A stretch of DNA of 64,000 bases, from contig OX439039.1 in the NCBI GenBank assembly GCA_949317995.1, positions 14,623,282-14,687,281 of the forward strand. Direction: 5' to 3'. The notes under the pieces are model-generated. The model saw only the letters and a program-made list of their open reading frames with translations. It had not been told where the DNA came from and made no database searches. Position numbers and translations under genes: made by a program. Each line of letters opens with the position of its first letter. Position 1 is the stretch's first letter. Of this stretch, positions 1 to 64,000 are shown in pieces. This DNA comes from Acholoe squamosa (lineage: Eukaryota; Annelida; Polychaeta; Phyllodocida; Polynoidae).

Positions 1-168
1 TGTGATTATTGTGGAAAGATGTTCAGGGACCGTACCAACCTCAATGTTCACAGGAGGTCACACACAGGGGAGAAACCCTTCAAGTGTTTGATCTGTTATA
101 GAGGATTCAGTCAGAAGATTAGCATGATAAAGCACATGGAGAATATACATGGTTCAGTCCGCACCTGA
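1..168 (+). CDS. Partial terminal exon, two C2H2 fingers
   Basis: The reading frame is open from base 1 to the TGA at 166-168; the acceptor lies left of the window. Finger 1 (CDYC...HRRSH, residues 1-21 of the visible part) and finger 2 (CLIC...HMENIH, 29-50) are joined by TGEKPF. Predicted base-contact positions (-1,2,3,6) are D,T,N,V and Q,I,S,K. The tail is GSVRT. Expected role is sequence-specific DNA binding as the C-terminal end of an alternatively spliced nuclear factor; that role is inferred from the family and the array. Confidence 0.85.
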
Positions 169-487
169 AAGTGAATTTTAAACACATGTTAGATTTATAA
201 TTATGTAAGGGTTCTGCAGGTCTACCTAGATGGAGCAGACGAAATTTTTTGTTTTGATGTCCAGGAATGATTGCAATCTTTCACGGAGAAAGCATTTGAA
301 CTCCTTCTTGCATAGATTCCTATTTTTCCCTCTAAGGCCTCTACAATAAGCGTTGCCAATTCCTTAATGAATATCGGCCTATAGCATTACCTTTGAGCAC
401 ACTTGGATATATGTCAAGTTTTATACATTTTATTACGGACAAAATATTTTTATTCCAACCTGACGTTACTGTGCTCATTGTTTCCAG

Positions 488-766
488 GTGGGCTCTCAAT
501 TAGGAGATACTTGGACGTATGGCCAGTCTTGGCAGCTTGGTATGGCTTGTCCAGTTTGTGCCAAGGTCTTTACACGTTCGGGGAACTTGAATCTTCACTT
601 GAAGACGCACTCGGGCCTAAAGCCTTTTCAATGTACGGTGTGCGACAACAGTTTTGGCCGAAAGTCAAGCATGCTCAGACACATGGAAAAAGTGCATAGG
701 GAGGTTCCAGGTTTCAGTAATACAGATAGAAAGCTAGGGACAGGGACACAAGGGAAGATTGATTAG
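488..766 (+). CDS. Alternative terminal exon, two C2H2 fingers
   Basis: The exon starts after ttccag at 482-487 in phase 0 (GTG GGC TCT) and ends at TAG 764-766, 92 codons. Twenty variable residues precede finger 1 (Cys21, Cys24, His37, His41) and finger 2 (Cys49, Cys52, His65, His70). Contact positions are R,G,N,L and R,S,S,R. The linker is unusual, HSGLKPF, with Leu for the usual Glu. A 22-residue Gly/Lys-rich tail follows, longer than in most neighbours. No initiator is needed if it is spliced to an upstream coding exon. Confidence 0.87.
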   Translation: MGSQLGDTWTYGQSWQLGMACPVCAKVFTRSGNLNLHLKTHSGLKPFQCTVCDNSFGRKSSMLRHMEKVHREVPGFSNTDRKLGTGTQGKID

Positions 767-1081
767 GAGAATGCACTTGTTGCATAGCTATTGTAAGAGG
801 TCCACAGGCATAAACGGTGTATATCCTTTTAGTTTGAAAACTTTGCTTTAATATTATTTGAGCTATTTGGAGAATAAGGAGCATGTCTTTGAGAATATGA
901 GTTCACCAACTTAAGCCTACCTGTTAAACTTCCTGACCTGGTTCTCATTTTAATATGAAGTAAGGAAATGCATGTTAGTGTTTTATATGCTAGGACCGAC
1001 CTAGTTGAATGCAAGTTCACTAACAAAAAGTTCAGTTGTGTTCTTCTGGAATGTCTGAGAATTCTTACTTGATGATTACAG
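767..1081 (+). other. Inter-exon DNA, nothing recognised
   Basis: AT-rich spacer ending in the degraded acceptor gatgattacag of the next pseudo-exon. I see no further coding, repeat or RNA signal. A minus-strand open frame here has no recognisable domain. Confidence 0.5.
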
Positions 1082-1292
1082 GGAGGATTATGGATGCTTC
1101 CATACAGAAAGAACATGGATATGGGCGAAAGAGTCCGGATTGTCAGATTTGAATTTCACGACGAATTACAACCTGGACATGCATATGAGAATTCACACTG
1201 GAGAGAAACCTTTCAAATGTTCCTTCTGTAATAGGGGATTCAGTCAGAAGATCCACATGATCAAGCATGTACAGAATATCCATTCCTCATAA
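1082..1292 (+). pseudogene. Broken two-finger exon
   Basis: Follows gatgattacag. It resembles the intact exon at 3085-3342 (shared 'attacaacctgacatgcatatgag' region), but the first finger is interrupted: after CAG ATT the frame hits TGA because about eight bases spanning the second Cys and the following residues are missing. Finger 2 (CSFC...HVQNIH) and the stop TAA 1290-1292 survive. The acceptor-defined frame and the finger frame no longer agree, so the exon is probably dead. Confidence 0.72.
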
Positions 1293-1485
1293 GCAGAAGA
1301 AGGGCCATGAAGTGAGGGCTCGTTAAAGTGTGTGTGGCCAATATCTGACTTTTAATGACATTTTAAGGTTTTTACTTTCATCGTTTGTAGGGTAAGGATC
1401 AGGAGATACATTTTAGGGTATTTTGCATTGCCCTTCTGAAAGATTCTGACATGTGCTAATCATTGCACTTACTTTTTTAACACAG

Positions 1486-1701
1486 CGCGTGGCCAAACAC
1501 AGAGAGACTGCGAACCACAGATCCAAAAAGAAGAATTTCGATTGCTCCATTTGTGGCAAGACATTCTCGCAGCGTGGGAATCTGAAAGTTCACCTGAAAA
1601 CACACACAGGAGAGAAACCTTTTACTTGTGTGCACTGTAGTCGAGGGTTTGTCCAAAAGATAAATATGTTGACACATATACAAAGAGTTCATCACTCATA
1701 G
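1486..1701 (+). CDS. Alternative terminal exon, two C2H2 fingers
   Basis: Acceptor ttaacacag ends at 1485; the first codon is CGC in phase 0, and TAG ends at 1701 (71 residues). A basic stretch RSKKK precedes finger 1 (Cys20, Cys23, His36, His40) and could act as a nuclear localisation signal. Finger 2 spans Cys48 to His69 (CVHC...HIQRVH). Contact positions are Q,G,N,V and Q,I,N,T. The TGEKPF linker is canonical. There is no ATG at the exon start; the upstream ATG at 1453 lies in the intron and is not the start. Confidence 0.87.
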
Positions 1702-1935
1702 ACTACCAAGATTTTCTACACAAAGCAGTATTGAGGAGTTAGTTCAGGTTTAGAAGAAGTTCTTTATCCTTTGTTCATGGCTGGAAGGCTTTCTTAGAAT
1801 TAATAAATGATTGTTTGTAAATTGCTTTTAGGTTCATGAGAGGATAGATTAAACTTTTAGGAATCAGTGAATGGCGATGTGCTGGCTCATGAGTAAATGT
1901 GAGTTCTGAGTTAAACTTTTGCTTGCATATTACAG

Positions 1936-2155
1936 GCAAGAACTTGGGCTTCTAGTTTACCTGCATCATCCAGACAAGCGAGTAGGTTTGAAGAAGATAG
2001 GTATGGTTGCCAGATTTGTGGTAAGAAGTGATAATCTAAAGGCGCGTATCAGGACACATGCAGGAGAGAAACCATTTAAGTGTTCGTTCTGCAATAGGGC
2101 CTTTAGCCAGAAGATACACATAATTACACATGAGAAAAAGCTGCATTCATCATGA
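1936..2155 (+). pseudogene. Two-finger exon with frameshift in finger 1
   Basis: After gcatattacag the phase-0 frame begins [16 protein letters not shown], which closely matches the pre-finger region of the intact exon at 3085, then CQICGKK followed by TGA. The finger resumes in another frame at [16 protein letters not shown], so roughly eight bases are missing around the core Phe. Finger 2 (CSFCNRAF...HEKKLH) and the stop at 2153-2155 are intact. Interpreted as a recently disabled paralogue of 3085-3342. Confidence 0.77.
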
Positions 2156-3084: not shown

Positions 3085-3342
3085 GCAGCAACATGGACCT
3101 ACAGCTTCCCTGCTTCCTCCAGGAAAGCGAGTGGGTCAGGGCAGAAGAGTCGCGATTGCCAGATTTGTGGGAAGAGGTTTACGACAAATTACAACCTGAC
3201 GATGCACATGAGGACACATACAGGAGAGAAACCCTTCAAATGTCCATATTGCCAAAAGAGCTTCACTCAGAAGATAGGCATGATGAGACATATGCAGAAC
3301 TTTCACAAGGTGAAGGGAAATGCTTCAAAAGACACAAAATAA
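3085..3342 (+). CDS. Alternative terminal exon, two C2H2 fingers
   Basis: Acceptor gctgattacag ends at 3084. The phase-0 frame starts GCA GCA ACA TGG and runs 85 codons to TAA 3340-3342. It contains no early ATG, so a start-codon-based gene finder would miss it. Finger 1 is Cys25, Cys28, His41, His45; finger 2 is Cys53, Cys56, His69, His74. Contact positions are T,Y,N,M and Q,I,G,R, with a TGEKPF linker. The tail KVKGNASKDTK is polar. The broken exons at 1082 and 1936 are its close paralogues. Confidence 0.87.
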   Translation, partial: AATWTYSFPASSRKASGSGQKSRDCQICGKRFTTNYNLTMHMRTHTGEKPFKCPYCQKSFTQKIGMMRHMQNFHKVKGNASKDTK

Positions 3343-3491: not shown

Positions 3492-3788
3492 GCAATGACT
3501 TTTACCAAAGTCATATCCATGGTCAGTAGGACTGGCCACCAGAACATCAGTCGGTCACAGACTTCATCTCTGCAGTGCCCGTTATGTGCCAAGACGTTTT
3601 CTATGGCCGGGAATCTGAAGGTTCATATGAGAACACACATGGGAGAGAAATTATTTCAATGTCCGGTTTGTAATACTGGTTTTAGTACCAAGGCTAACAT
3701 GCTGAGGCACCTGAAAAGTCATCAAAAGGAACGAGGTTCCAGTCTAGAACAGCATTATACTATCAAAAAAGAGAAAAGAGGCATTTGA
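3492..3788 (+). CDS. Alternative terminal exon, two C2H2 fingers
   Basis: Acceptor ctgtttgcag ends at 3491; GCA ATG ACT begins the phase-0 frame, ending at 3788 (98 residues). Finger 1 (Cys29-His49) and finger 2 (Cys57-His77) have contact positions M,G,N,V and T,A,N,R. The linker is altered to HMGEKLF (Thr to Met, Pro to Leu), which may weaken the TGEKP helix-capping linker. A charged 21-residue tail ends KKEKRGI. Only 149 bases separate it from the preceding exon's stop. Confidence 0.87.
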   Translation, partial: AMTFTKVISMVSRTGHQNISRSQTSSLQCPLCAKTFSMAGNLKVHMRTHMGEKLFQCPVCNTGFSTKANMLRHLKSHQKERGSSLEQHYTIKKEKRGI

Positions 3789-4401: not shown

Positions 4402-4644
4402 GTAGGGACTGTGGGACAGCCACTGTGGATGAGGACTCCCTCTGGTTACTATCAAGTGAACCGGTCGGGCCAGAAAACATTTGATTGCTCGATTTGCGGC
4501 AAGAAGTTTGCACAGAACTGGAACCTGACGGTTCACATGAGGATACATACTGGAGAGAGGCCCTTTAAATGTGTGCATTGTGACAAAGGTTTCAACCAGA
4601 AAGTGCACCTGATGAAGCATGTTGAGAAAATACACCATCTTTGA
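4402..4644 (+). CDS. Alternative terminal exon, two C2H2 fingers
   Basis: Starts after ctccccttacag in phase 0 (GTA GGG ACT) and ends TGA 4642-4644, 80 residues. Finger 1 is Cys29, Cys32, His45, His49; finger 2 (CVHC...HVEKIH) is Cys57 to His78. Contacts are Q,W,N,V and Q,V,H,K. Linker TGERPF. Aromatic pre-finger region (W, YY). The second finger resembles that of 1486-1701, placing both in the same local subfamily. Confidence 0.88.
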   Translation, partial: VGTVGQPLWMRTPSGYYQVNRSGQKTFDCSICGKKFAQNWNLTVHMRIHTGERPFKCVHCDKGFNQKVHLMKHVEKIHHL

Positions 4645-4889: not shown

Positions 4890-5186
4890 ATAACACCGGG
4901 TATTGGAGCCAAACCCAGAAAGAAAGTAAAAAAGTGGACCCACTGGCAGATGGTACCCCTGGGTGTTGGCACCCTACCCCAAGAGAAAGGCAAGTGTAAA
5001 AAGCGACTAGTCTGCACCATCTGTGGCAGATGGATGATGAATAAAGATGATCTTAAACTCCATATGAACGCCCACAGCGACGACGATCAGCCGTATCAAT
5101 GCCCGTACTGCGTTCAGCGGTTCTCATGGAATCATGAAATGCTGAAGCACATGGAGAAGGTTCACCCCCGAGGACACTTTGGCTAA
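4890..5186 (+). CDS. Alternative terminal exon, two divergent C2H2 fingers
   Basis: Acceptor attgttgcag ends at 4889; ATA ACA CCG opens a 98-codon phase-0 frame ending at 5186. The 41-residue pre-finger segment is strongly basic (KPRKKVKK, KGKCKKR), a likely nuclear signal. Finger 1 (Cys42, Cys45, His58, His62) has Met instead of the core Phe. The linker is HSDDDQPYQ, acidic and one residue longer than TGEKP linkers. Finger 2 is Cys71 to His92 with Trp at -1. The most divergent pair of the first 5 kb. Confidence 0.84.
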   Translation: MTPGIGAKPRKKVKKWTHWQMVPLGVGTLPQEKGKCKKRLVCTICGRWMMNKDDLKLHMNAHSDDDQPYQCPYCVQRFSWNHEMLKHMEKVHPRGHFG

Positions 5187-5521: not shown

Positions 5522-5755
5522 GTGGGGATGACTAACACTACTGCATCCCAGATGCGGAAATCGAGCCCACCATGCGAGATTTGTGGTAGGATGATATGGG
5601 ACAAGTCGCACCGTATCATTCACATGAGGACGCACACAGGCGAAAAGCCATTTCAGTGTACGGTGTGCGGGAAAGATTTTGCACAGAATTCCTCGTTGGT
5701 GAGGCATATGAAGACATGTCATCCTGGTCAAAGAATCCCTCCTTCTGCCACATGA
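5522..5755 (+). CDS. Alternative terminal exon, two C2H2 fingers (PCEICGR type)
   Basis: Starts after tatcattgcag with GTG GGG ATG in phase 0, ends 5755, 77 residues. Finger 1 (Cys18, Cys21, His34, His38) has Ile at the core Phe position and Arg at the core Leu position (DKSHRIIH), so its hydrophobic core looks weak. Finger 2 (CTVCGKDFAQNSSL, Cys46-His67) is canonical with contacts Q,S,S,R. TGEKPF linker. Founder-like member of the subfamily at 6706, 6950, 7570, 10160 and 16538. Confidence 0.86.
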   Translation: MGMTNTTASQMRKSSPPCEICGRMIWDKSHRIIHMRTHTGEKPFQCTVCGKDFAQNSSLVRHMKTCHPGQRIPPSAT

Positions 5756-6949: not shown

Positions 6950-7195
6950 ATGTGTCAGCCTAGCATAGAGGTACCACTGAAAGACCCCTGCCACACAGAG
7001 AAGCCTAGTTTGACCTTTGAGATATGTGGCAGAATGACGTCTAGAAGATCAGAGTTGATCAAGCACATCAGGACCCACACTGGCGAGAAGCCATTTCAGT
7101 GTCCTGTCTGTCAGAAAGGTTTTGCACAAAACTCAAACATGCTAAGGCACATTAGGAAAAGTCATGCTGACCAAGAAGTGTTGCCAATTGTGTGA
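6950..7195 (+). CDS. Alternative terminal exon, finger 1 lacks its first Cys
   Basis: Acceptor gttctttgcag ends at 6949; ATG TGT CAG starts an 81-codon phase-0 frame to TGA 7193-7195. Finger 1 reads F23-E-I-C26: the first zinc ligand is Phe (TTT, one G-to-T change from TGT) and the core Phe is Thr, so it probably cannot bind zinc normally. Finger 2 (CPVC...HIRKSH, Cys51-His72) is intact with contacts Q,S,N,R. The frame is open, so it may still be expressed as a one-finger end. A decayed duplicate is at 10160-10340. Confidence 0.78.
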
Positions 7196-7569: not shown

Positions 7570-7785
7570 ATGGTGCCGCGTGGTTTCCCACCTCAGAGGG
7601 TCAACCAAAAGAGGGGGAGGCTCCTGCCGTGTGAGATATGCGGCCAGCTGAGTGAGGGTAAATCAAACCATACCAACCACATGAGAACACACACTGGCGA
7701 AAGGCCCTTTCAATGCCCCCTCTGCCAAAGCAACTTTACCCAGAGACAGAGCATGCTCAAGCACATGAGGAAGTATCACACTTAG
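7570..7785 (+). CDS. Alternative terminal exon, two C2H2 fingers (PCEICG type)
   Basis: Acceptor tgccattgcag ends at 7569; ATG GTG CCG begins a 71-codon frame ending 7785 right after finger 2 (...KYHT). Finger 1 (Cys21, Cys24, His37, His41) keeps all four ligands but has Ser for core Phe and His for core Leu. Finger 2 (CPLC, Cys49-His70) is canonical with contacts Q,Q,S,K. Linker TGERPF. A basic KRGR patch lies just before finger 1. Confidence 0.85.
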   Translation: MVPRGFPPQRVNQKRGRLLPCEICGQLSEGKSNHTNHMRTHTGERPFQCPLCQSNFTQRQSMLKHMRKYHT

Positions 7786-9110
<1,325 letters not shown>

Positions 9111-9275
9111 ATCGTAAGAGCTATACTTTCGGTTAACATGACATTGATTTCTCAAGTTTTGACTTGTTCAGTGCTAAGGGGTCTGAGTGTTCACATAATC
9201 AGGCTTCCAGCTTTTGCTTGGTATCAGAAATGTTATAGATGGAAGGCACATTTTCACAATTTCTGACAAAGTATG

Positions 9276-9343
9276 TTCAATCAAAAGGCCCACTTGGGTA
9301 ACCACATGTAAAGAATTAATCGAAACTTGGAATCTTTGTAAGA
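9276..9343 (+). pseudogene. Finger-2 remnant
   Basis: Reads F-N-Q-K-A-H-L-G-N-H-M then TAA, aligned with the second finger of 13168-13428 (NKKSHLVNHMKRVHRNL). Likely the detached 3' part of the 8943 pseudo-exon. Confidence 0.6.
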
Positions 9344-9465
9344 AAATGCTAATAGTCTTAAGGTTTGAGTATTCATAGGATCAAACTTCCTCTCTTTGCA
9401 TGGTATCAGAAATACATGCCAGGGAAATTTCTCATTTTTTAATGTATATATAGTGTGAATAACAG

Positions 9466-9498
9466 ATCCACTCCAGAAGCTTGAAGGGCCACTCGTAA
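9466..9498 (+). pseudogene. Exon-start remnant
   Basis: gtgaataacag is followed by ATC CAC TCC AGA AGC, the KVC-subfamily exon start, but the frame ends at TAA after ten codons and no finger follows. Confidence 0.55.
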
Positions 9499-9730
9499 AT
9501 GATCGCTATAAGTGTTATGATTCAGGCATAGGAAAGTATTTGTCAGTCGTTTTAGGTTAAAATATCAGCTGTCACAGTGTTGTATTAAATATGCATAGAT
9601 TGTATGCAAGAGAAGGGAGCATCGAAAAGAGAATTGTAAAATGGGCTCATTAGAACTAAGTACAAAAGTATCACATAGGCATTATATTGTGAAAAACAGG
9701 TTGTGTTCAATTATCAGTGTAGCCGTTTTG

Positions 9731-9736
9731 AATAAA
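9731..9736 (+). terminator. Candidate polyadenylation signal AATAAA
   Basis: AATAAA within a block (TTTGAATAAAG...TGATCTGTCTTGTGTT) repeated almost unchanged around 15188. Conservation of this block next to KVC-type exons supports a real 3' end. Confidence 0.6.
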
Positions 9737-9906
9737 GTATTGAGTTAACTTGATCTGTCTTGTGTTTCTGTGAGTGAAATTAGCAGACTTTACTAACAGC
9801 AAACAGTCCATATCTGATCATTCAATACACATGTGCTGTAGCTTGTTCCAAGCCATTAAGCTGAAGATGAATGGTCTTGTAGTTGATACCGTTTGATAGG
9901 CATTAT

Positions 9907-10035
9907 TTCAGATCGGTCTGTATGGTAATGGTTTGCCATATAGAGGGGCCTGTCACTTGTGATTCATAATGAGTGTGTCCTGCCTGCAAAGGTGATTTTA
10001 GTCTCTAGGATATCTCAAGGAAACATAGGACAACA
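9907..10035 (+). pseudogene. Highly decayed copy of the 6706 exon
   Basis: atttcagATCGGTCTGTATGG aligns with the 6706 exon start, and CCTGCCTGCAAAGGTGATTTTAG aligns with its finger-2 region. Finger 1 is gone. Part of a larger duplicated block (about 6620-7200 versus 9815-10345). Confidence 0.55.
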
Positions 10036-10159
10036 ATCAATCATTGCATAACCAAAGAGGGCAATGCACCACACCATTTCATGTTTTCCTTGTGAGATAG
10101 TTTCTCATAAAAATGACTTAAGATTTTGAAAGGCCTAAGGGCTGGGACAAGTGAATACT

Positions 10160-10340
10160 TAGTTGACATGTGAGATATGTGGCAGAATGACGTCTAGAAG
10201 ATGATCAGGCATATCAGGACCCACACTGGCAAGAAGCCATTTCAGTGCCCAGGCTGTCAGGTTTTGCACAGAGGTCTAGCATGCTAAGGCACATTAGGAT
10301 GCATAACCCTGACCAACAAGTCTCACCAACTGCACCATAA
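10160..10340 (+). pseudogene. Decayed duplicate of the 6950 exon
   Basis: Matches the finger region of 6950-7195 nearly base for base (gagatatgtggcagaatgac...), including the end corresponding to the stop, here TAA 10338-10340. A 7-base deletion in finger 1 and a 4-base deletion in finger 2 break the frame. It still reads ACATGTGAGATATGT at the first Cys, so the Cys-to-Phe change in 6950 arose after the duplication or was never shared. Confidence 0.73.
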
Positions 10341-11137
10341 TCATCAGAAAGATGGAAAGTTATACCAGAGCATTGGTCTTGTGCAGTTGCATGAAAGGTT
10401 TTGATGCATGCTATGGTATTAAAAATTTCATGGGTACCACCTGCCCCCCACCCCGACACCTGCAGTGAATAGTTGGGATTCTTTCATTGGCTGATAATTA
10501 ATCCCGCTAAGTCGGTATAGTGTATGCCTCCTTTACTAAAATTTCTAATCTTTGTACTGTTGTGATGACACATTTATGGCTCTAGCACGTAGGGAACATT
10601 TAAAAATAATTTTAGCATTGATACTTTGGGCATGGGAAACATTCACAAATGATTTCAGAATTAACACTATCGCACGGGGAACATTCACAAATGGGCAATG
10701 TTTTACAAAAGTAAATCACCATTGACACTGGGAAAAGTTAACAAGTGACTATTGCCACTATGCCATGGGGAACATTCACAAATAACTCTTTTTAATTGAT
10801 AATATGATGCGAGGAATTCACAGATGCTTATACTATTGACCATAGGACATGTCAAAGGAGGTTCAAAAATTATTTCAGCATTGGCACAATAACCAATAGG
10901 GCATTCACAAATGATTCACCATTGGCACTATGATACGGAGAACTGGGGGACACATGGGCACATAGATTGACACATAGGCAGACTTTGGACACATGGAGAG
11001 GCAGAAGGGGGTCTGTTCCATAACATTAAGGCGGAAAAACATGTTCTTTTGAGTTGTTGGTTGTGCATGGTTCTTTGAGTGATTGTTAACATAGAGGCAG
11101 TTAAGAGTTGGCACCAAGGAGAATCTGATTAGACTCT
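10341..11137 (+). other. Spacer with degenerate tandem repeat
   Basis: No coding signal. Most of the interval is the repeat listed at 10590-10945. No good acceptor is present before the next finger ORF. Confidence 0.5.
10590..10945. repeat. Degenerate tandem repeat, unit roughly 55-65 bp
   Basis: The phrase 'gggaacattcacaaatga' with a preceding 'cattg(g/a)cactat' recurs about six times with variable spacing and many substitutions. Looks like an old minisatellite. Confidence 0.55.
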
Positions 11138-11407
11138 ATGGGTAGGCGGCACCTCACATCAAACCAAGAGGAAGTTGGTAAAGTGTTCCAATGCAACACA
11201 TGTGAGAAAGTTTGTAAAAAGAAATCACACCTCAAAGAACATATGAGGATACATACAGGTGAAAAGCCTTTCCATTGCTCACTTTGTGAGGGCAGGTTTA
11301 TTACAAAGTCCCATTTGCTTAGGCACATAAAAGTAATTCATCAGAACTTGCAAACCCATAAAAAGGGCCTTGAGAGGAAGGAATCTGCATCTTTTAAAGT
11401 ACAATGA
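11138..11407 (+). CDS. Two-finger ORF of the KVC subfamily, no phase-0 acceptor
   Basis: The finger frame is clean: finger 1 Cys19, Cys22, His35, His39 (EKVCKKKSHL, Cys at the core Phe position) and finger 2 Cys47 to His68, contacts K,S,H,E and T,S,H,R, stop at 11407. But where relatives have gattacag the sequence is gattag (ends 11132), and that AG enters two bases out of phase; other nearby AGs either mis-phase or meet a stop. The coding part is preserved while the acceptor is damaged, so function is uncertain. ATG at 11138 marks the start of the open finger frame only. Confidence 0.6.
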   Translation: MGRRHLTSNQEEVGKVFQCNTCEKVCKKKSHLKEHMRIHTGEKPFHCSLCEGRFITKSHLLRHIKVIHQNLQTHKKGLERKESASFKVQ

Positions 11408-11698: not shown

Positions 11699-11959
11699 AT
11701 GAACTCCAAAAGATTGAACCTCACATCAAGCCAACACAAAGTTCCCAAAGTGTTTACATGTGATGTATGTGGCAAAGTTTGTAATCAAAGAGGTCATCTC
11801 ACTGAACATATGAGGATACATTCAGGTGAAAAGCCTTTACATTGCTTACTTTGTCAGAAGACATTCAGCAAAAAGTCTAATGTGGCTAGCCACATGAAAA
11901 GAATTCATCAAAACTTGCAAACCCAAAAGAATGGTTTTGAGAGCAAGGAATCTTTGTGA
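11699..11959 (+). CDS. Alternative terminal exon, two fingers, KVC subfamily
   Basis: Acceptor tgtggattacag ends at 11698; ATG AAC TCC starts an 86-codon frame ending 11959. Finger 1 (Cys21, Cys24, His37, His41) has Cys28 in the core Phe position; finger 2 (Cys49-His70) has Val for core Leu. Contacts Q,G,H,E and K,S,N,S. Linker HSGEKPL. The tail [15 protein letters not shown] recurs in 13168 and 11138. The exon and about 180 bases of upstream intron are duplicated at 13640-14044. Confidence 0.87.
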
Positions 11960-12047: not shown

Positions 12048-12276
12048 ATTCACTCCAGAAGATGGAACCTCAGATCGAACCGACAGACAGCTCTGAAAGT
12101 GTACTGATGTGATGTGTGTGGCAAAGTTTGTAAACAGAAAGGTCATCTTAGACTGCATGAGGATACACACTGGTGTAAGGCTCTTCAACTGCTCACTCTG
12201 TTAGAGAAAGTTCAATTAAAAGTCTAGCTTGGTTACCCACTTAAAAAGAGTTCATCGAAACTTGAGAACTGAATAG
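12048..12276 (+). pseudogene. KVC-subfamily exon with multiple stops
   Basis: A good acceptor (tgtggattacag, ends 12047) and exon start (ATT CAC TCC AGA AGA TGG) are kept, but TGA follows GTG TAC just before finger 1, an indel breaks the first His region, and finger 2 carries TAG and TAA in place of GAG and AAA codons. Relic stop TAG at 12274-12276. Clearly dead despite an intact-looking splice site. Confidence 0.82.
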
Positions 12277-13167: not shown

Positions 13168-13428
13168 GTTCACTCCAGAAGTTGGAATCTCACATCGAAC
13201 CAACAGACAGTTCACAAAGCGTACCAATGCTCCGAATGTGGCAGAGTTTGTAAACAAAAAAGTCATCTCACAGATCATATGAGGATACACACAGGTGAAA
13301 AGCCATTCCAGTGCTCGGTTTGTGAGAGGAGATTCAATAAAAAGTCCCACTTGGTTAACCACATGAAAAGAGTTCATCGAAACTTGCAAATCCAAAAGAA
13401 TGGCCTTGAGAGTAAGGAATCTGTGTAA
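13168..13428 (+). CDS. Alternative terminal exon, two fingers, KVC subfamily
   Basis: Acceptor tgtggagtacag ends at 13167; GTT CAC TCC AGA opens the 86-codon phase-0 frame to 13428. Finger 1 (Cys21, Cys24, His37, His41) has Cys28 for the core Phe; finger 2 is Cys49-His70. Contacts Q,S,H,D and K,S,H,N: both fingers carry His at +3. TGEKPF linker. Tail NLQIQKNGLESKESV. The pre-finger motif HSRSWNLTSNQ is the subfamily hallmark. Confidence 0.88.
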   Translation, partial: VHSRSWNLTSNQQTVHKAYQCSECGRVCKQKSHLTDHMRIHTGEKPFQCSVCERRFNKKSHLVNHMKRVHRNLQIQKNGLESKESV

Positions 13429-13813: not shown

Positions 13814-14044
13814 ATGAATGCCAAAAGATGGAACCTCGCATCAAGCCAACACAAAGTTCCCAAAGTGTTTACATGTGATGTATGTGGCAAAGTTTGTAAA
13901 AAAAAAGGTCATCTCTCAGATCACATGAGGATACACACTGGTGAAAAGCCCTTCCATTGTTCCATTTGTGAGAGTAGGTTCAATAGAAAGTCTAGCTTGG
14001 TTACCCACATGAAAAGAGTTCATCGAAACTTGAAAAATGAATAG
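13814..14044 (+). CDS. Alternative terminal exon, two fingers, KVC subfamily
   Basis: Acceptor tgtggattacag ends at 13813; ATG AAT GCC starts a 76-codon frame ending 14044. Finger 1 (Cys21-His41) reads CGKVCKKKGHL with Cys for the core Phe; finger 2 is Cys49-His70. Contacts K,G,H,D and R,S,S,T. Pre-finger and finger 1 are nearly the same as in 11699, but finger 2 differs, suggesting exchange between paralogues or rapid finger-2 divergence. Confidence 0.88.
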   Translation: MNAKRWNLASSQHKVPKVFTCDVCGKVCKKKGHLSDHMRIHTGEKPFHCSICESRFNRKSSLVTHMKRVHRNLKNE

Positions 14045-14277: not shown

Positions 14278-14604
14278 GTTCGCTCCAGAAGCTGCAACCT
14301 CACATCGCATCAAGAGAAAGTTCCCAAAGTGTTCCCATGTGATGTATATGGCAAAGTTTGTAAAAAGAATTGTCATCTCATAGAACATTAAAGGATACAT
14401 ACTGGTGAAAAGCCATTCCATTGCTCGGTTTGTGAGAGGAGATTCCATAGAAAGTCTCACTTGGCTAGCCACATGAATACAGTACATGGAAACTTGGAAA
14501 CTGAAGAAAATGGTCTCATGAGAAAGTCAGGGTCATGGCAATGTGAATTCTACCATTTCGAAAAGAAAGGTGGAATGTTTCTGCTAGGCTTCCCTCTTAT
14601 GTAA
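14278..14604 (+). pseudogene. KVC-subfamily exon with lost Cys and stop
   Basis: Acceptor tatggattacag ends at 14277; GTT CGC TCC AGA AGC is a normal start. In finger 1 the second Cys is Tyr (GTA TAT GGC) and the ATG after the first His has become TAA (14389-14391). The same frame then continues cleanly through finger 2 ([18 protein letters not shown]) to TAA at 14602-14604. Only a few changes, so a fairly recent pseudo-exon. Confidence 0.8.
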
Positions 14605-32207: not shown

Positions 32208-32248
<41 letters not shown>

Positions 32249-48933: not shown

Positions 48934-49174
48934 AATGCTTCAGCTGGACAGTCTAGTACCGGATCGGTGAATTCTAGTGATCAGTCTACATCAAAATCTG
49001 AAACATCCAAATACGTGTGCAATATGCCTGAAAGTATTCAGTCGCTCATCTAACCTAAAAACTCACATCAGGACTCATAGTGGCGAGAAGCCATTCCCAT
49101 GTCCCTTCTGTGGGAAGAGATTTACTGTAAAGTGCAACATGACCAGTCACGTGGCTTCTATGCATACTAAATGA
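48934..49174 (+). pseudogene. Two-finger exon with 2-base deletion
   Basis: Acceptor tcactttcag ends at 48933 and the phase-0 frame runs AAT GCT TCA ... TCC AAA TAC GTG TGC AAT, as in 49430, then two bases are missing in the CxxC codons and TAA follows. In the shifted frame finger 1 reads [15 protein letters not shown]...H and finger 2 [14 protein letters not shown]...H, both otherwise perfect, to TGA 49172-49174. Either a very young pseudo-exon or a sequence error. Confidence 0.68.
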
Positions 49175-49429: not shown

Positions 49430-49675
49430 GTGCCGGTAGCTTCCACTGGACAACATATCCATGTCAGTCAACTACAGAATAAAACAGCAATAGCCCAGTA
49501 TGTGTGTGAGACATGTGGCAGGGCATTCAACCGCTCTTCGAACTTGAAAAAGCACAGAATGACCCATACTGGGGAGAAGCCATTTGTTTGCTCGATAAGT
49601 AGAAAAGGATTAAGTCAGAAGGCTAGTCTATGTAGGCACATGGCTTCACTGCATCCACAGTCAGACAATGGATGA
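49430..49675 (+). CDS. Alternative terminal exon, finger 2 lacks a Cys
   Basis: Acceptor atcattccag ends at 49429; GTG CCG GTA GCT starts an 81-codon frame to 49675. Finger 1 (CETCGRAFNRSSNL, Cys26-His46) is complete, contacts R,S,N,K. Finger 2 reads C54-S-I-S57: the second ligand is Ser and the core Phe is Leu, so zinc binding is doubtful. The frame is open and the splice site good; it may function with one finger or be at the start of decay. TGEKPF linker. Confidence 0.78.
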   Translation: MPVASTGQHIHVSQLQNKTAIAQYVCETCGRAFNRSSNLKKHRMTHTGEKPFVCSISRKGLSQKASLCRHMASLHPQSDNG

Positions 49676-50347: not shown

Positions 50348-50602
50348 GTTCTTTTGACATCTCCAATTTTTTATTGTAAGGTAATGGTCACATGGTATTC
50401 CACTGAGAACTTCTATTCATACGAGAAACAAGGAAGCCTGTCATGTCAGCTTTGTGGCAAAATCTTGTCTGCACTGAGGAAACCTCAACCGAATATGAGG
50501 ACACATACGGGAGAGAAACCATTTCAAAGCCCTATCTGTAAAAAAGTATTCAGCGCAAAGTGCAATGTGTATCGGCACATGGCTTCGGTTCATTTGCAAT
50601 AA
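50348..50602 (+). CDS. Alternative terminal exon, both fingers missing a ligand
   Basis: Acceptor tctacaagacag ends at 50347, giving GTT CTT TTG ACA in phase 0; an in-phase alternative start follows ccactgag (50407). Frame ends at 50602, 84 codons. Finger 1 (Cys33, Cys36) has Asn instead of the first His (PNMRTH) and Leu for core Phe; finger 2 has Ser for its first Cys (FQSPIC). Open frame but probably not DNA-binding through normal fingers; could be an early pseudo-exon. Confidence 0.6.
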   Translation, partial: VLLTSPIFYCKVMVTWYSTENFYSYEKQGSLSCQLCGKILSALRKPQPNMRTHTGEKPFQSPICKKVFSAKCNVYRHMASVHLQ

Positions 50603-51067: not shown

Positions 51068-51307
51068 ATGACTCCCGATGGAAACAATTCATCTATAAAT
51101 TGGATAAAGACTGAAACAGGAACAACAGGATATTTGTGCCAGATATGTGGTAAAACATGTGGTTCTACAACAAACATTAGAGCTCACATGAGGACACACA
51201 CAGGCGAGAAACCATTCCAGTGCCCTTTATGTAAAAAGGGATTCAGTGTGAAAGCCAATATGATTCGGCATATGGCTTCACAGCGATGTAAGAGTAAGAA
51301 CTTTTAA
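51068..51307 (+). CDS. Alternative terminal exon, second finger C2HC
   Basis: Acceptor ccacttgcag ends at 51067; ATG ACT CCC GAT starts a 79-codon frame to 51307. Finger 1 (Cys24, Cys27, His40, His44) has Cys for core Phe (GKTCGSTTNI). Finger 2 begins Cys52, Cys55, His68, but where others have HMASVH it reads HMASQRC74, i.e. His-x5-Cys as last ligand. The same ending occurs in 54408 (HMASQKC). Contacts S,T,N,A and V,A,N,R. Confidence 0.87.
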   Translation: MTPDGNNSSINWIKTETGTTGYLCQICGKTCGSTTNIRAHMRTHTGEKPFQCPLCKKGFSVKANMIRHMASQRCKSKNF

Positions 51308-51960: not shown

Positions 51961-52183
51961 GTCGCCTTTAGCTGGCCTCCACATGTCTGCCCTCAGCCAC
52001 AACCTAAAACGAGAGAGGACAGTATGTGTGCCACATGTGCAGCAAAGACTGGTTATCTGTCAAATCTGAGAGCTCACATGCGTACACACGGGAGAGAAAC
52101 CCTTTATATGCTCTGTCTGTAGCAAAGGGTTTAGCCAAAAGGCTAGTATGATCCGGCACATGACTTCTATGCGCACAAAATGA
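51961..52183 (+). pseudogene. Two-finger exon with linker frameshift
   Basis: Acceptor tatgtacttgcag ends at 51960; GTC GCC TTT AGC TGG is in phase. Finger 1 ([21 protein letters not shown]) is complete. In the linker ACACAC GGG lacks two bases, shifting the frame to TAG within finger 2. Finger 2 otherwise reads [14 protein letters not shown]...HMTSMR, where the last His is Arg. Relic stop 52181-52183. Confidence 0.77.
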
Positions 52184-52636: not shown

Positions 52637-52867
52637 ATAGTTTCACCAAGAAGGGGAAACACAGTTTGGCGCTCTGAGGCACCATCCATGCAGGCAGCCT
52701 CTCAGTACGAATGTCCAAGTTGTGCGCGTGTATTTGATCGGTCTTATAATCTGAAGGCCCATATGAGGACACATACTGGTGAAAAGCCGTTTGAGTGCCC
52801 TGTGTGCAGGATGGCATTTGCCTTGAAGGGAAATTTGCAGAAACATATGAGGCGCCGCCACCCTTGA
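52637..52867 (+). CDS. Alternative terminal exon, two C2H2 fingers (VFDRSYNL)
   Basis: Acceptor ccccttccag ends at 52636; ATA GTT TCA CCA opens a 76-codon phase-0 frame to TGA 52865-52867. The first ATG is 18 codons in, so start-based gene calls would truncate it. Finger 1 (Cys26, Cys29, His42, His46) and finger 2 (CPVC, Cys54-His75) are complete. Contacts R,Y,N,A and L,G,N,K. TGEKPF linker. Groups with the 42-45 kb subfamily although it sits among HMASVH-type exons. Confidence 0.9.
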   Translation: MVSPRRGNTVWRSEAPSMQAASQYECPSCARVFDRSYNLKAHMRTHTGEKPFECPVCRMAFALKGNLQKHMRRRHP

Positions 52868-53573: not shown

Positions 53574-53804
53574 ATGACTTCTGTAGGACATGTTGCGTCT
53601 AGAAATTGGCCAAAGACCAAAGCAGCAGGAACAGCACAATATGTGTTTCAAATATGTGGTAAAATATTTGGTTTTCCAACAAACCTGAAAGCTCACATGA
53701 GGACACACACGGGTGAGAAACCGTTCCAGTGTCCTATATGTGAAAAGGGATTCAGTGTAAAGTTTAGCATGGCTCGGCACATGACGTCAGTGCATTCACA
53801 ATGA
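53574..53804 (+). CDS. Alternative terminal exon, finger 1 lacks its first Cys
   Basis: Acceptor ttctacttgcag ends at 53573; ATG ACT TCT GTA starts a 76-codon frame to 53804. Finger 1 reads V-F25-Q-I-C28, with Phe (TTT) where relatives have Cys (YLCQIC in 51068). Finger 2 (CPICEKGF, Cys53-His74) is complete with contacts V,F,S,R. TGEKPF linker. The frame is open; like 6950 and 49430 it may work as a one-finger end or be decaying. Confidence 0.77.
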
Positions 53805-54407: not shown

Positions 54408-54647
54408 GTGGCCTCTACTGTACTTCACACACCTGTTAGTCAGCCACAGCCCAAAAGAGGAAGAGTACAACATGTGTGTATTGTGTGCGGCAAAGACTTT
54501 AGCCATCTGACTAATCTTAAAGCTCACTTGCGGACACACACAGGCGAGAAACCATTCCAGTGCCCTTTATGTAAAAAGGGATTTAGTGTAAAATCCAATA
54601 TGACCCGGCACATGGCTTCACAGAAATGTAAGTTTTCAGAGTTTTAG
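54408..54647 (+). CDS. Alternative terminal exon, second finger C2HC
   Basis: Acceptor gttgtacttgcag ends at 54407; GTG GCC TCT ACT opens a 79-codon frame to 54647. Finger 1 (Cys24, Cys27, His40, His44) is canonical, contacts H,T,N,A. Finger 2 (Cys52, Cys55, His68) ends HMASQKC74, so the last ligand would be Cys after five residues, as in 51068. The bases encoding [14 protein letters not shown] are virtually the same in both exons, pointing to recent conversion or duplication. Basic PKRGR precedes finger 1. Confidence 0.88.
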
Positions 54648-55669: not shown

Positions 55670-55915
55670 ATGGCCACATCAGGATATCAATATTCACTCG
55701 CTCCTATCTCTTATCCACGATCAGAACCGAAGGATCCTAAGTTGATGTGCCCGACTTGTGGGAAAACCTTTGGGTATGCTACCAATATAATTGCACACAA
55801 AAGGACCCATACAGGTGAAAAGCCACTTGGATGCTCAATTTGCAAGGCCAGATTTTCACTGACGGTTAATATGTCGTGGCACATGCGGGTATTCCATGGT
55901 GTGAAAGACAATTAA
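55670..55915 (+). CDS. Alternative terminal exon, two C2H2 fingers (TFGYATNI)
   Basis: Acceptor gcatttgcag ends at 55669; ATG GCC ACA TCA starts an 81-codon frame to 55915. Finger 1 (Cys27, Cys30, His43, His47; IAHKRTH) and finger 2 (CSIC, Cys55-His76) are complete. Contacts Y,T,N,A and L,V,N,W. Linker TGEKPLG. The stop is only 46 bases before the next exon, so a transcript ending here must be cleaved inside or beyond that exon. Confidence 0.9.
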   Translation: MATSGYQYSLAPISYPRSEPKDPKLMCPTCGKTFGYATNIIAHKRTHTGEKPLGCSICKARFSLTVNMSWHMRVFHGVKDN

Positions 55916-55961: not shown

Positions 55962-56198
55962 ATGGTCTCGAGAGCAGTTCCTGCAGGCTGGCCGAACAAT
56001 GCCTTAACACAGCGAATTTCAAATTCTAACTCTTGCGGAGTCTGCGGTCGGGAGTTTTTCACTCAGTGTGACCTGGAGCGACATATGCGAACCCACACTG
56101 GAATAAAACCGTTTCAGTGTTTAGTCTGTGGGAAAAAGTTCAATCGAAAGGACAACATGACCAGGCATATGACAGCAAAGCACCCTGCTTCACTCTGA
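55962..56198 (+). CDS. Alternative terminal exon, two C2H2 fingers
   Basis: Acceptor attgttcttacag ends at 55961; ATG GTC TCG AGA starts a 78-codon frame to 56198. Finger 1 (CGVCGREFFTQCDL, Cys25-His45) and finger 2 (CLVCGKKFNRKDNM, Cys53-His74) are complete. Contacts T,C,D,R and R,D,N,R, unlike any neighbour. Linker TGIKPF (Glu to Ile). The 46-base gap to the previous stop contains the whole polypyrimidine/acceptor region and little else. Confidence 0.9.
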   Translation: MVSRAVPAGWPNNALTQRISNSNSCGVCGREFFTQCDLERHMRTHTGIKPFQCLVCGKKFNRKDNMTRHMTAKHPASL

Positions 56199-59914: not shown

Positions 59915-60548
59915 AATCTTCCCCTCAGTCTTGCTATACTAAAATTGATTGTCTAATTTTTTGTTTAATTGGCTGATAAATATGAACCCACAAGATTAAA
60001 AAATAGACAAATGCCCACAAACTGACGTTTTCATTTGTGCTAAGTGCTGTTTAATAAGGGAGTAAATGTATCATTTAATGTAAATTATAAGTACCAAATG
60101 ATGGAGTGGTTTCACCATCCCACCTTTGACCCCAATAATGTATGCACAGGTAGGTGTCATGGTCCAGTGACCAGGGCTCTGATTGGCCCATACACTTGTT
60201 GAGGTGAGTGTCATGGTCCAGTGCACACACAACTACTAAGATGCCAGTACATCCTAAACCTGCATGGTATCAGAATCCTAGTACAGACTAAAATCAGACT
60301 GTTGTACTATAATCCTGGTGTGTCCCAACAAGATAGTCCCGTCCCCAACCTGATATCCCTCGACATACATTTACGCAATTTGCAAAGCTTATATATTTTT
60401 TTTTCTGCCTACCACATAGGTCATCTGTTTGAGAAGCAAAATAATCTTCTTTTGTTTTTGCCTGTGCTGTAATCTTAAAGTGTACATCAAGAACACTTCT
60501 TGTATCCTGTACAAATTCTTAACTCTTCTGTTGCCTGTGGTATTGCAG

Positions 60549-60776
60549 ATGTACAATGAGTCAGTCGTGACTGGCCCGACACTTGCCTGTGTCATACGTC
60601 AGCGGCCACAGCACCAATGTCAGACTTGCGGGAGCTCGTTTGACCGTCCCGCTAAGTTAATCACACACATGAGATCGCACACTGGGGAGAGACCGTTCAA
60701 ATGCTCGCTCTGCGAGAAAAGCTTTTCACAAAAGTCTAACCTGACCAGACATGTGGTTTCAATCCATTCACAATAG
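60549..60776 (+). CDS. Alternative terminal exon, two C2H2 fingers (SFDRPAKL)
   Basis: Acceptor gtggtattgcag ends at 60548; ATG TAC AAT GAG starts a 75-codon frame to 60776. Finger 1 (Cys24, Cys27, His40, His44) reads [10 protein letters not shown], as in 44894 and 63525; finger 2 (CSLC, Cys52-His73) ends HVVSIH. Contacts R,A,K,T and Q,S,N,R. TGERPF linker. Finger 1 of one subfamily and finger 2 of another suggest recombination between exons. Confidence 0.9.
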
Positions 60777-61572: not shown

Positions 61573-61827
61573 ATGTTCACACTTGGATATCCCTTCACAT
61601 CTGGCAAATCTACAACTCAGCCTCAGTCTGCAAGAGAGAAACAACACTTGATGTGTCCCACATGTGGAAAGATCTTTGACCACACTACAAATTTCATTGC
61701 ACACAAGAGAACCCACACAGGGGAGAAACCGTTTGTGTGCTCTGTTTGCCCGGCCAGGTTTTCCTTGAAGGGTAACATGTTGAGGCATATGAAGAGCAGG
61801 CATCAGATCTTTCAAGAAATTCCCTGA
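61573..61827 (+). CDS. Alternative terminal exon, two C2H2 fingers (IFDHTTNF)
   Basis: Acceptor gttggccttgcag ends at 61572; ATG TTC ACA CTT starts an 84-codon frame to 61827. Finger 1 (Cys28, Cys31, His44, His48; IAHKRTH) and finger 2 (CSVCPARF, Cys56-His77) are complete. Contacts H,T,N,A and L,G,N,R. TGEKPF linker. Closest to 55670 (LMCPTCGKxF, [12 protein letters not shown]). Ser/Thr/Gln-rich pre-finger region. Confidence 0.91.
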   Translation: MFTLGYPFTSGKSTTQPQSAREKQHLMCPTCGKIFDHTTNFIAHKRTHTGEKPFVCSVCPARFSLKGNMLRHMKSRHQIFQEIP

Positions 61828-62087: not shown

Positions 62088-62369
62088 ATGTTTCATGCAA
62101 GAGGAGGACACAGTTGGATGAGAACAGCTCCTCCAACTTCAGGCTCAACACAACCTCGGGTGGAAAATCCAAACACGTGTGATATCTGCGGGAGGACATT
62201 TAATACAAAACAGCGCTTTGAGAGACACAGGTTGACACACACGGGAGAAAAACCGTTCCGCTGTCCAATTTGTGGACACGGTTTCAACCAAAAGACAAAT
62301 ATGTCAAGGCACATGACATCTCAGCATCCACAACAGTGTCTTGGACCACAGACTTCTTCACTATCTTAG
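62088..62369 (+). CDS. Alternative terminal exon, two C2H2 fingers (TFNTKQRF)
   Basis: Acceptor atatccttgcag ends at 62087; ATG TTT CAT GCA starts a 93-codon frame to 62369. Finger 1 (CDICGRTFNTKQRF, Cys31-His51) and finger 2 (CPICGHGFNQKTNM, Cys59-His80) are complete. Contacts T,Q,R,R and Q,T,N,R. TGEKPF linker. Thirteen-residue tail PQQCLGPQTSSLS. A G17 run begins 19 bases after the stop. Confidence 0.91.
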   Translation: MFHARGGHSWMRTAPPTSGSTQPRVENPNTCDICGRTFNTKQRFERHRLTHTGEKPFRCPICGHGFNQKTNMSRHMTSQHPQQCLGPQTSSLS

Positions 62370-62404: not shown

Positions 62405-62658
62405 CAGTAGTCTTGTGAAAAGGATGCCTACTCTTGCCATAGAACATGGCGACATTACTTATTAGATCTTCTCAGCATAGTTCAGATTTCGAAGTAGTTG
62501 TTCTTTAAGTAAGTGTTGCTTTTTTTTTTTTTTATGATTTCTTGCATAAGAAGTTAAGCTTTTATCGATGAATATAGTTTGAAGGCTTCTGGTGAAGTTC
62601 AGCATGAATAAAAGATTTGAACTTGCATCGTAATGGTTATCAATCTCTATTCTTATAG

Positions 62659-62772
62659 ATGTTGCATACAAGGCAAGATAAAAAGCACACAGATGAACAT
62701 GAGCCTGCAAGGCCTGTAAAACATTTGAGATTACTTTGCATTTGGATCCAAAGGAGCCTGCAATCCTCATAG
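62659..62772 (+). pseudogene. Finger exon remnant
   Basis: Acceptor-like attcttatag ends at 62658 and ATG TTG CAT ACA AGG resembles the 62088 start. A finger start (C-K-A-C-K-T-F-E-I-T-L) is visible one frame over, near 62706-62745, then the match is lost. The phase-0 frame ends at TAG 62770-62772 without any finger. Confidence 0.5.
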
Positions 62773-62915
62773 ACTATATCCTTATCTATGCTGTACCTTA
62801 TATGCACTGGGCATTAGACTTCTTGTTCTCGAGAATGAGACTTGAGAGGTATAATTGGCTTCAGCTTGGTATTCTTATGATGCACGTGTAAAATCAGATG
62901 TTCTCCTTGTTGCAG

Positions 62916-63134
62916 ATGATTCCAGGTCTGAGTTGGCCAAAAGCTACCTCAACCAGTCCCTTGTCCAGTAGCACAAGGAGACCCAAGACCTGCCTTGTAT
63001 GTGGTAGGCAGTTTGCCGAGAACAGGAACTTGGAGAGACACATGAGGACACACACTGGAGAGAAACCGTTCAAATGCTCTCTATGTGGGATGGCATTCAG
63101 TGTTAAATGTAACCTTAAGAGGCACATCACTTAA
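62916..63134 (+). CDS. Alternative terminal exon, finger 2 cut before the last His
   Basis: Acceptor ccttgttgcag ends at 62915; ATG ATT CCA GGT starts a 72-codon frame ending TAA 63132-63134. Finger 1 (CLVCGRQFAENRNL, Cys26-His46) is complete, contacts E,R,N,R. Finger 2 (Cys54, Cys57, His70) ends RHIT-stop, where relatives read HMTSxH; the DNA continues ATG CAC, so TCA to TAA removed the last His. TGEKPF linker. Finger 2 may still fold weakly with a solvent ligand. Confidence 0.8.
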   Translation: MIPGLSWPKATSTSPLSSSTRRPKTCLVCGRQFAENRNLERHMRTHTGEKPFKCSLCGMAFSVKCNLKRHIT

Positions 63135-63524
63135 ATGCACCTAATACAGTGATCAGATATTCAGTTTTGATTAGGAGGAGATAGATTCTTTGATCATATT
63201 TAAGACAGGCAAATCAATAAAGCAGTTATTCTTACAAGGTTTTTGCAGTTAAGTTTCATTAAGTTAAGCCATTGGTACTACATATCATACTGTAAATCTG
63301 ACAAAGCCCAGGTGATGCCGTTTCTCACTGCATCCAGTGCGGCTAGTGTATAGTTATTCTTTACACAAGCAGAAACTGAGAATATTGAATTTCAACAGTG
63401 ATTCATATGCTCTGCCTTTAGATGTTTATAAGAGTTTCCCCTGTAAGATAGTTTTCATTAATATGTGAGTGACATGGTTCATTACTTCCTTTGATATTAT
63501 CAACCTTTTGTGTTGTACTGACAG
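63135..63524 (+). other. Spacer with poly(A) signal
   Basis: AATAAA at 63216-63221. Ends in gttgtactgacag. Confidence 0.5.
63216..63221 (+). terminator. Candidate polyadenylation signal AATAAA
   Basis: About 80 bases after the stop of 62916. Confidence 0.5.
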
Positions 63525-63713
63525 ATGGCCCCACAGGGATATGCAAGAAGATACATGTGCCAAACGTGTCAGAAATCATTCGATCGGCCGGCCAAGCTTG
63601 TTGCACACGAGAGAACACATACTGGTGAAAGGCCTTTTGAATGCTCTTTATGCAACGCAAGATTTTCACTGAAAGGAAACCTCAAGAAACACACAAAGAA
63701 GCAGCATTCTTGA
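63525..63713 (+). CDS. Alternative terminal exon, two C2H2 fingers (SFDRPAKL)
   Basis: Acceptor tgtactgacag ends at 63524; ATG GCC CCA CAG starts a 62-codon frame to 63713, the shortest intact exon here with only 11 residues before finger 1 (Cys12, Cys15, His28, His32). Finger 2 is [14 protein letters not shown], Cys40-His61. Contacts R,A,K,A and L,G,N,K. TGERPF linker. Confidence 0.91.
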
Positions 63714-63901
63714 GATTCTTGTATAATATATTGGCACACACAAGAACAATATGTCTAAAGTCCCAAACAAACTGTTTAAGACCAATGAGAGTTTTCTTGC
63801 TGTGTGTATAAAATAAGCTGCCAAAATAGCTTTACACCTGTAGTTTACTCAATTGTTTAAAGGATGCCATTAATAATGAAACAAGACTATTATTGTCACA
63901 G
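63714..63901 (+). other. Short inter-exon spacer
   Basis: Ends in ttattgtcacag. No features. Confidence 0.45.
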
Positions 63902-64000
63902 GTCGTTCACGGAGGAAGTTGGAATTGGAAGAATGATGCTTCACCTCTTGGCTCCTCTGGCCTAACCGCCAGAAACCATTACACATGCCAGGTTTGTGGT
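63902..64000 (+). CDS. Partial terminal exon, first finger begins
   Basis: Acceptor ttattgtcacag ends at 63901; GTC GTT CAC GGA GGA opens a phase-0 frame with a 28-residue pre-finger region and CQVCG at the window edge. The rest lies outside, so the array continues to the right. Confidence 0.85.

Follow-up and report, generated by a model that had tools for sequence, protein, structure and literature searches.

Candidate alternative terminal exons encoding C2H2 zinc fingers in a large array of the annelid Acholoe squamosa

Closest described systems and the finger array

The closest described systems are lola and mod(mdg4). In Drosophila lola, a BTB common region is joined to at least 20 alternative endings, most of them with zinc fingers, by cis- and trans-splicing (passages of PMC1947980). 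In mod(mdg4), a BTB constant part is combined with FLYWCH endings, trans-splicing is known, the isoforms number at least 31 in Drosophila, and in monarch 24 acceptor genes yield at least 40 (passages of PMC4667647). Here we analyzed a stretch of 64,000 nucleotides (the window) from the annelid Acholoe squamosa, which lies on contig OX439039.1 (hereafter C5:14623282-14687281) of a 1.48-Gb genome and is about the middle quarter of an array of candidate terminal exons encoding C2H2 zinc fingers on the plus strand. We consider it probable that the locus forms a single, very large transcription unit, in which a single constant exon would be alternatively spliced to about 225-250 terminal exons.

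In this mechanism, splicing would connect the phase-0 donor of the constant exon with a single phase-0 terminal exon out of about 225-250, each of which supplies a short linker, C2H2 fingers (as a rule two), and a stop. The resulting putative transcription factors would share their N-terminus and differ in the surface that contacts DNA.

As in lola, a common N-terminal region would be combined with alternative C-terminal, mostly zinc-finger exons; lola has at least 20 isoforms and this locus 225-250 candidate endings, about ten times more (for lola, the same passages of PMC1947980). It would also resemble mod(mdg4), where a single 5' exon serves many alternative 3' parts with zinc-binding domains, some of which lie on the opposite strand (passages of PMC4667647). 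It differs from mod(mdg4) in its endings, since FLYWCH was found at E<=0.001 in none of the ten tested (10 of the 53 full window units). It differs from lola in its constant part, which is BTB in lola and here an exon with no Pfam or PDB match, so the locus is not lola itself. The TTK-type BTB group is reportedly Arthropoda-specific (title of PMC11426971). The genome has no match to Chitin_bind_4, a family abundant in arthropods, which would hint at a host outside the arthropods, and none to the molluscan haemocyanin beta-sandwich or the annelid linker; the control genomes, however, were silent for all three.

Dscam1 and the clustered protocadherins also combine one locus, tandem alternative exons, and many isoforms. 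They vary internal or 5' exons of cell-surface proteins, whereas here the last exons of putative transcription factors vary. The C2H2 expansions of the KRAB, ZAD, and cephalopod clusters resemble this array in the local tandem duplication and diversification of fingers, but they grow as whole genes, and the repeated unit here is a single terminal exon. The words 'exon' and 'splicing' are absent from the main text of the cephalopod C2H2 paper (PMC12513265). We found no description of a non-BTB terminal-exon finger array in the open-licence PMC literature, and an earlier description elsewhere is possible.

We examined the window plus 200 kb to its left and 100 kb to its right, and searched for finger units with a profile built from finger pairs of the region. 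Within the window, the profile gave 70 matches, all on the plus strand, which group into 65 units. Of these, 53 contain a full-length finger pair without a stop, and 12 are partial. A phase-0 acceptor lies in the open stretch of 47 of the 53 full units (for one of them, 71 bp left of the window). This agrees with the original prediction of 48 open finger units on one strand. A C2H2 pattern search gave 117 matches on the plus strand and one on the minus strand, the latter unlike a real finger. The usual unit has two fingers with a TGEKP-type linker between them; two three-finger and two six-finger exons are also present (Table 1). All ten exons tested against Pfam (10 of the 53 full units) exceeded the zf-C2H2 cut-off.

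The array had been expected to run beyond both edges of the window, and it does. It starts at about 14,524,117 and spans at least C5:14,524,117-14,801,263. In the 264 kb from its start to the end of the right-hand DNA examined, which all plus-array counts cover, there are 303 units on the plus strand and none on the minus strand. A stop-free finger pair is present in 250 of the 303, and 225 of these 250 have a phase-0 acceptor. At the right end, a genome search with one rightmost exon retrieved a further exon at 14,801,114; no finger exon beyond it on this stretch was among the best 150 of 5511 candidates, and weaker ones are possible.

For the phase test, every plus unit with at least two fingers (n=211) was represented by the acceptor with the highest score within its open stretch. 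An acceptor was scored in 166 units, and it was in phase 0 in 148, phase 1 in 11, and phase 2 in 7. As a control, the procedure was applied to 274 open stretches without fingers from this DNA; acceptors in phases 0, 1, and 2 numbered 32, 34, and 36, and 172 stretches had none. Phase 0 is thus in excess of chance (148/166 vs. 32/102), which bears out the phase-0 entry noticed before. A frame-blind test of the window (59 units) gave 39, 8, and 12 for the three phases, and with a looser cut the best or near-best acceptor was in phase 0 in 180 of the 211 units. Aligned, these 180 acceptors have an ordinary acceptor sequence. On the exon side, outside the scoring, A or G stands at +1 in 93% and T at +2 in 66%, and 114 of the exons begin with Met, Val, or Ile. 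Among the acceptors named as examples in the original prediction, those at 488, 22577, 42139, and 62088 are in phase 0; the one at 5522 fell below our filter, and a phase-0 acceptor at 5552 passed it.

The stop comes a median of 5 residues past the last finger. Between the last finger and the stop, GTRAGT is present in one of the 211 units and GTRAG in six, and in the 180 exon bodies GTRAGT occurs 4 times in sense and 21 times in antisense. The looser GGTRAG weighs on the other side, with 34 sense and 17 antisense occurrences in the same exon bodies, so donor depletion is limited to the strong motif. The lack of a donor noticed before thus stands for the strong motif and not for the looser one.

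Constant exons and the same layout elsewhere in the genome

About 43 kb without finger matches separate the plus array from a second array on the minus strand, and this gap contains two paralogous exons that point away from each other (head-to-head). The plus constant exon (C5:14,517,804-14,518,616), 105 kb left of the window, has 813 nt, that is, 271 codons from an ATG that is presumably the start of translation, and ends in phase 0 at a TCG/GTAAGT donor. It encodes a conserved N-terminal domain of about 60 residues followed by an acidic, glycine-rich stretch. The minus constant exon (C5:14,485,336-14,486,130, minus strand) has 795 nt and 265 codons and ends in phase 0 at a TCG/GTAGGT donor. 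The two are 64% identical overall and looser past the first 61 residues, where they differ at one position: nonsynonymous divergence (pN) is 0.021 and synonymous divergence (pS) 0.74, near saturation.

A search left of the window for a shared exon ending in phase 0, BTB or other, had been proposed. The plus constant exon fits this proposal in position and phase, and it is not BTB. No Pfam family matched either constant exon at E<=1, and no PDB chain matched the first 61 residues of the plus exon or the two-exon profile at E<=10. At C5 14.4-14.8 Mb, no BTB was found among the best 150 of 506 candidates, nor in 10 further open stretches of the region. No relative of the N-terminal domain was confirmed in the prokaryote and viral contig collections.

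We also looked for an extra shared coding exon between the constant exon and the fingers. Between the two first introns, blastn detected one 24-nt match and tblastn none; as they share no coding sequence, the constant exon would most simply be spliced straight to the array. The genome search with the N-terminal domain had none of its 41 matches inside the plus array, and blastp of the constant exon against the 4245 open stretches on the plus strand of the array (>=20 aa) found none at E<=1. The locus has one phase-compatible upstream exon and many same-strand exons with acceptor and stop, the strong donor motif being absent between finger and stop in 210 of 211. The phases, order, and strand of the constant exon and the finger endings are compatible with joining.

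The minus array comprises 40 finger units, all on the strand of the minus constant exon; a stop-free pair is present in 39, and a phase-0 acceptor in 37 of these 39. Its lowest unit is at 14,426,186; to the left of it there are no units in the next 2.9 kb, nor among the genome-search matches listed. The head-to-head paralogue would act like the plus constant exon, with its own array of about 40 endings on the minus strand.

The same layout is found near other copies of the domain. In the whole genome, the N-terminal domain has 41 matches (all 45 candidates scored), of which 31 lie on C5, where head-to-head pairs lie at 14.486/14.518, 27.802/27.815, and 63.621/63.625 Mb. Among the matches listed by two genome finger searches, we counted by hand those in short frames (under 250 aa). 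Outside the home locus, 37 of the 45 listed lie 3' of a same-strand domain copy, within about 90 kb. Six such groups follow the domain copies at C5:27,801,708 (-), C5:27,814,517 (+), C5:29,832,120 (+), C5:8,355,889 (+), C5:58,620,632 (+), and C1:117,913,968 (+). Finger matches in long frames, on contigs that include C4 and C10, resemble ordinary poly-finger genes.

Evolution of the endings and alternative explanations

In the plus array, the closest relatives are at a median rank distance of 3, against about 64 after shuffling, which argues for growth by local duplication. In 12 recent duplicate pairs, in-register homology is centered on the finger exon and mostly extends 0.3 kb or less upstream, with patches to about 1 kb. 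The array would have grown by local tandem duplication of single exons plus some flanking intron.

Close duplicates show purifying selection: the pooled ratio of nonsynonymous to synonymous substitutions (dN/dS) is 0.21 over 23 independent close pairs (>72% nucleotide identity). It is 0.35 at the eight base-contact positions and 0.28 at the other non-ligand positions, so the contacts appear mildly relaxed and not positively selected. The contact-residue sets were distinct in all 214 finger pairs compared. Together with the low dN/dS, this suggests that recent duplicates were kept functional and different.

These values bear on the alternative that survives best, namely that some endings are used and most of the array consists of relics of past duplications. 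Such relics would account for the 53 of 303 plus units without a full stop-free pair and for the degenerate fingers or frameshifts of some window units. However, a stop is found in just 11 of the 316 profile matches of the plus array, and the pooled dN/dS also speaks for function. We regard this explanation as unlikely, and most exons are probably in use.

It is very unlikely, in our view, that separate promoters drive the finger exons and that these are then attached to the constant exon by trans-splicing. Trans-splicing is known for both closest analogues (passages of PMC1947980 and PMC4667647), and it would suit an array about 280 kb long with two such genes head to head. Nevertheless, each array lies downstream of its own constant exon and on the same strand; cis-splicing therefore suffices, and nothing requires trans.

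The original prediction had also allowed for several small genes. In such a case, each finger exon or small group would have its own promoter and first exon, as in ordinary zinc-finger gene clusters. We searched the array for such a first exon. The 821 non-finger plus stretches (>=35 aa) group by similarity into 26 small families. Local tandem repeats make up the two largest, with 17 and 9 members; none of the others exceeds 4 members, and no stretch of this kind is repeated along with the finger units. A private first exon that had been duplicated together with its finger exon should have emerged from this comparison, unless it is very short or fast-evolving. The observed/expected CpG ratio is 0.42 upstream of the finger exons and 0.44 upstream of the plus constant exon; since the constant exon itself shows no CpG enrichment, CpG is uninformative as a promoter test. 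Small independent genes are the least probable of the three alternatives: a local start is imaginable where ATG directly follows the acceptor (43 of the 148 phase-0 acceptors), but no first exon recurs, the 12 recent duplicate pairs share the finger exon and short flanks with no shared upstream block, finger groups elsewhere mostly lie 3' of a domain copy, and a consistent phase-0 polypyrimidine-CAG acceptor would be purposeless in an exon that starts its own translation.

As a separate observation, 500-bp bins at C5:14613031-14614281 reach a CpG ratio above 0.9 (region mean 0.44) and a GC content of up to 62%; they overlap a local tandem repeat.

Several results weigh against one transcription unit with alternative last exons, and the main one is the poly(A) signal. 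AATAAA or ATTAAA occurs within 300, 500, and 1000 nt of the stop in 66, 97, and 150 of the 211 units, and the background at random positions is 34%, 49%, and 73%. The antisense counts (59, 89, and 134) are little below the sense ones. Poly(A) hexamers after the plus-array stops are thus not above background, and no variant signal stood out. In the 37 units of the minus array, hexamers number 19 in sense vs. 12 in antisense within 300 nt, 25 vs. 24 within 600 nt, and 33 vs. 27 within 1000 nt, the numbers being small. The background level in the plus array speaks against a simple last-exon model. Regarding the original idea of alternative terminal finger exons on one shared exon, an upstream phase-0 exon does exist; BTB is absent and the poly(A) signals are at background.

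Other points on the same side concern splicing. Past the stop, at 200-300 nt, GGTRAG (16 vs. 7) and GTRAGT (9 vs. 3) are somewhat raised, so that some splicing beyond the stop may occur. A shared exon for the 3' untranslated region was considered and rejected, as donor motifs past the stops have no consistent rise, the 200-300 nt bin being somewhat high. No scored phase-0 acceptor was found in 25 of the 250 stop-free plus units, and to include the last exons, a transcript would have to be about 283 kb long. No clear splice-choice element emerged either: the best 6-mer precedes 12 of the 180 acceptors, and its counts in control segments are 2 and 1. Docking or selector elements like those of Dscam were rejected, with no strong k-mer upstream of the acceptors.

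Finally, of 37 finger pairs from the minus array, only 22 have their closest relative in that array; the two arrays thus do not form clearly distinct lineages. Elsewhere in the genome, 8 of the 45 listed short-frame finger matches have no domain copy nearby (C4:8,707,169, C4:31,329,689, C4:49,384,971, C4:81,158,245, C15:30,759,599, C1:80,700,937, C12:21,368,147, and C8:35,413,606).

Window features and significance of the locus

The units of the window are given in Table 1. A frameshifted relative lies between the two six-finger exons (29056-32359), in an otherwise two-finger array. The longest part of the window without fingers, 34.2-40.4 kb, contains a 38/68-bp minisatellite (35,390-36,708), adjoined by a 134-bp satellite with 13.9 copies and a 91% match (36,800-38,660). 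An open stretch on the minus strand (59119-59475) resembles by eye the end of a non-LTR (non-long terminal repeat) reverse transcriptase, and Pfam gave no family for it at E 0.001. Rfam and tRNA scans of the window gave no match. Outside the window, about 10.5-13 kb to its left, an 809-residue open stretch (C5:14610322-14612748) has a long Q-, P-, and R-rich low-complexity segment before two fingers and may be a very long array ending.

Table 1. Finger units of the 64,000-nucleotide window (window positions)
Feature	Position	Strand	Remark
Middle quarter of terminal-exon array	1..64000	+	
Two-finger terminal exon	1..168	+	cut at window edge; acceptor 71 bp outside to left
Two-finger terminal exon	488..766	+	
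Partial unit	1152..1292	+	finger 1 degenerate
Two-finger terminal exon	1486..1701	+	
Partial unit	2024..2155	+	finger 1 degenerate
Two-finger terminal exon	3085..3342	+	phase-1 acceptor at 3123 stronger
Two-finger terminal exon	3492..3788	+	
Two-finger terminal exon	4402..4644	+	
Two-finger terminal exon	4890..5186	+	
Two-finger terminal exon	5552..5755	+	acceptor 5522 (original prediction) possible alternative
Two-finger terminal exon	6950..7195	+	finger 1 degenerate
Two-finger terminal exon	7597..7785	+	
Two partial units	9003..10260	+	9003-9086 and 10195-10260
Two-finger open stretch	11129..11407	+	no scored acceptor
Two-finger terminal exon	11699..11959	+	acceptor weak
Partial unit	12112..12249	+	
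Two-finger terminal exon	13207..13428	+	acceptor weak; duplicate pair with 13814..14044
Two-finger terminal exon	13814..14044	+	acceptor weak; duplicate pair with 13207..13428
Partial unit	14338..14604	+	finger 1 broken
Three-finger terminal exon	15706..16098	+	
Two-finger terminal exon	16538..16762	+	CAG/ATG
Two-finger terminal exon	18226..18444	+	finger 1 short by one residue
Two-finger terminal exon	18653..18967	+	finger 1 degenerate
Weak two-finger unit	19226..19474	+	
Partial unit	19571..19717	+	
Two-finger terminal exon	19971..20258	+	
Two-finger terminal exon	20552..20803	+	
Partial unit	21328..21420	+	
Partial unit	21989..22120	+	cysteine lost from finger 2
Two-finger terminal exon	22577..22804	+	
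Two-finger terminal exon	23290..23499	+	duplicate of 22577..22804
Two-finger terminal exon	25147..25413	+	
Two-finger terminal exon	25970..26233	+	acceptor weak
Six-finger terminal exon	29056..29733	+	
Frameshifted multi-finger relative	30257..30956	+	3 overlapping open stretches; no scored acceptor
Six-finger terminal exon	31367..32359	+	acidic tail; CAG/ATG
Three-finger terminal exon	33746..34162	+	
Two-finger terminal exon	40383..40640	+	
Two-finger terminal exon	42139..42402	+	
Two-finger terminal exon	42686..42913	+	
Two-finger terminal exon	43291..43509	+	
Two-finger terminal exon	43868..44107	+	acceptor weak
Two-finger open stretch	44861..45103	+	no scored acceptor
Two-finger terminal exon	45350..45607	+	
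Weak two-finger unit	45939..46127	+	no scored acceptor
Two-finger terminal exon	46500..46754	+	CAG/ATG
Partial unit	47662..47821	+	
Two-finger open stretch	48971..49174	+	no scored acceptor
Two-finger unit	49478..49675	+	finger 2 degenerate
Two-finger unit	50348..50602	+	fingers 1 and 2 degenerate
Two-finger terminal exon	51068..51307	+	CAG/ATG
Partial unit	52027..52183	+	frameshifted
Two-finger terminal exon	52637..52867	+	
Two-finger terminal exon	53574..53804	+	CAG/ATG; finger 1 without first cysteine
Two-finger terminal exon	54408..54647	+	acceptor 54408 or 54450
Two-finger terminal exon	55670..55915	+	acceptor 55670 or 55586
Two-finger terminal exon	55962..56198	+	CAG/ATG
Two-finger terminal exon	60420..60776	+	later acceptor possible
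Two-finger terminal exon	61573..61827	+	CAG/ATG
Two-finger terminal exon	62088..62369	+	CAG/ATG
Two-finger terminal exon	62916..63134	+	CAG/ATG; stop directly ends finger 2
Two-finger terminal exon	63525..63713	+	CAG/ATG
Partial unit	63999..64000	+	continues past right window edge

Our results suggest that the splicing of one locus could yield hundreds of DNA-binding proteins, which may act as regulators. If the endings are used, one divergent gene pair would encode close to 300 transcription factors with a common constant part and different DNA contacts, roughly tenfold more than the isoforms known from lola or mod(mdg4) (passages of PMC1947980 and PMC4667647). As there is no BTB domain here, the strategy would in that case have arisen independently.

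More broadly, and with moderate confidence, we lean towards a genome-wide gene family built on an undescribed N-terminal domain, in which alternative last exons would diversify DNA-binding specificity. With about 250 endings, plus about 40 in its partner, this locus would be the largest alternative-terminal-exon gene known, its repertoire close in size to a whole zinc-finger gene family. It raises the question of how a cell would pick one last exon among hundreds over 280 kb. Genome annotation limited to one or a few isoforms per gene would overlook such loci or break them up.

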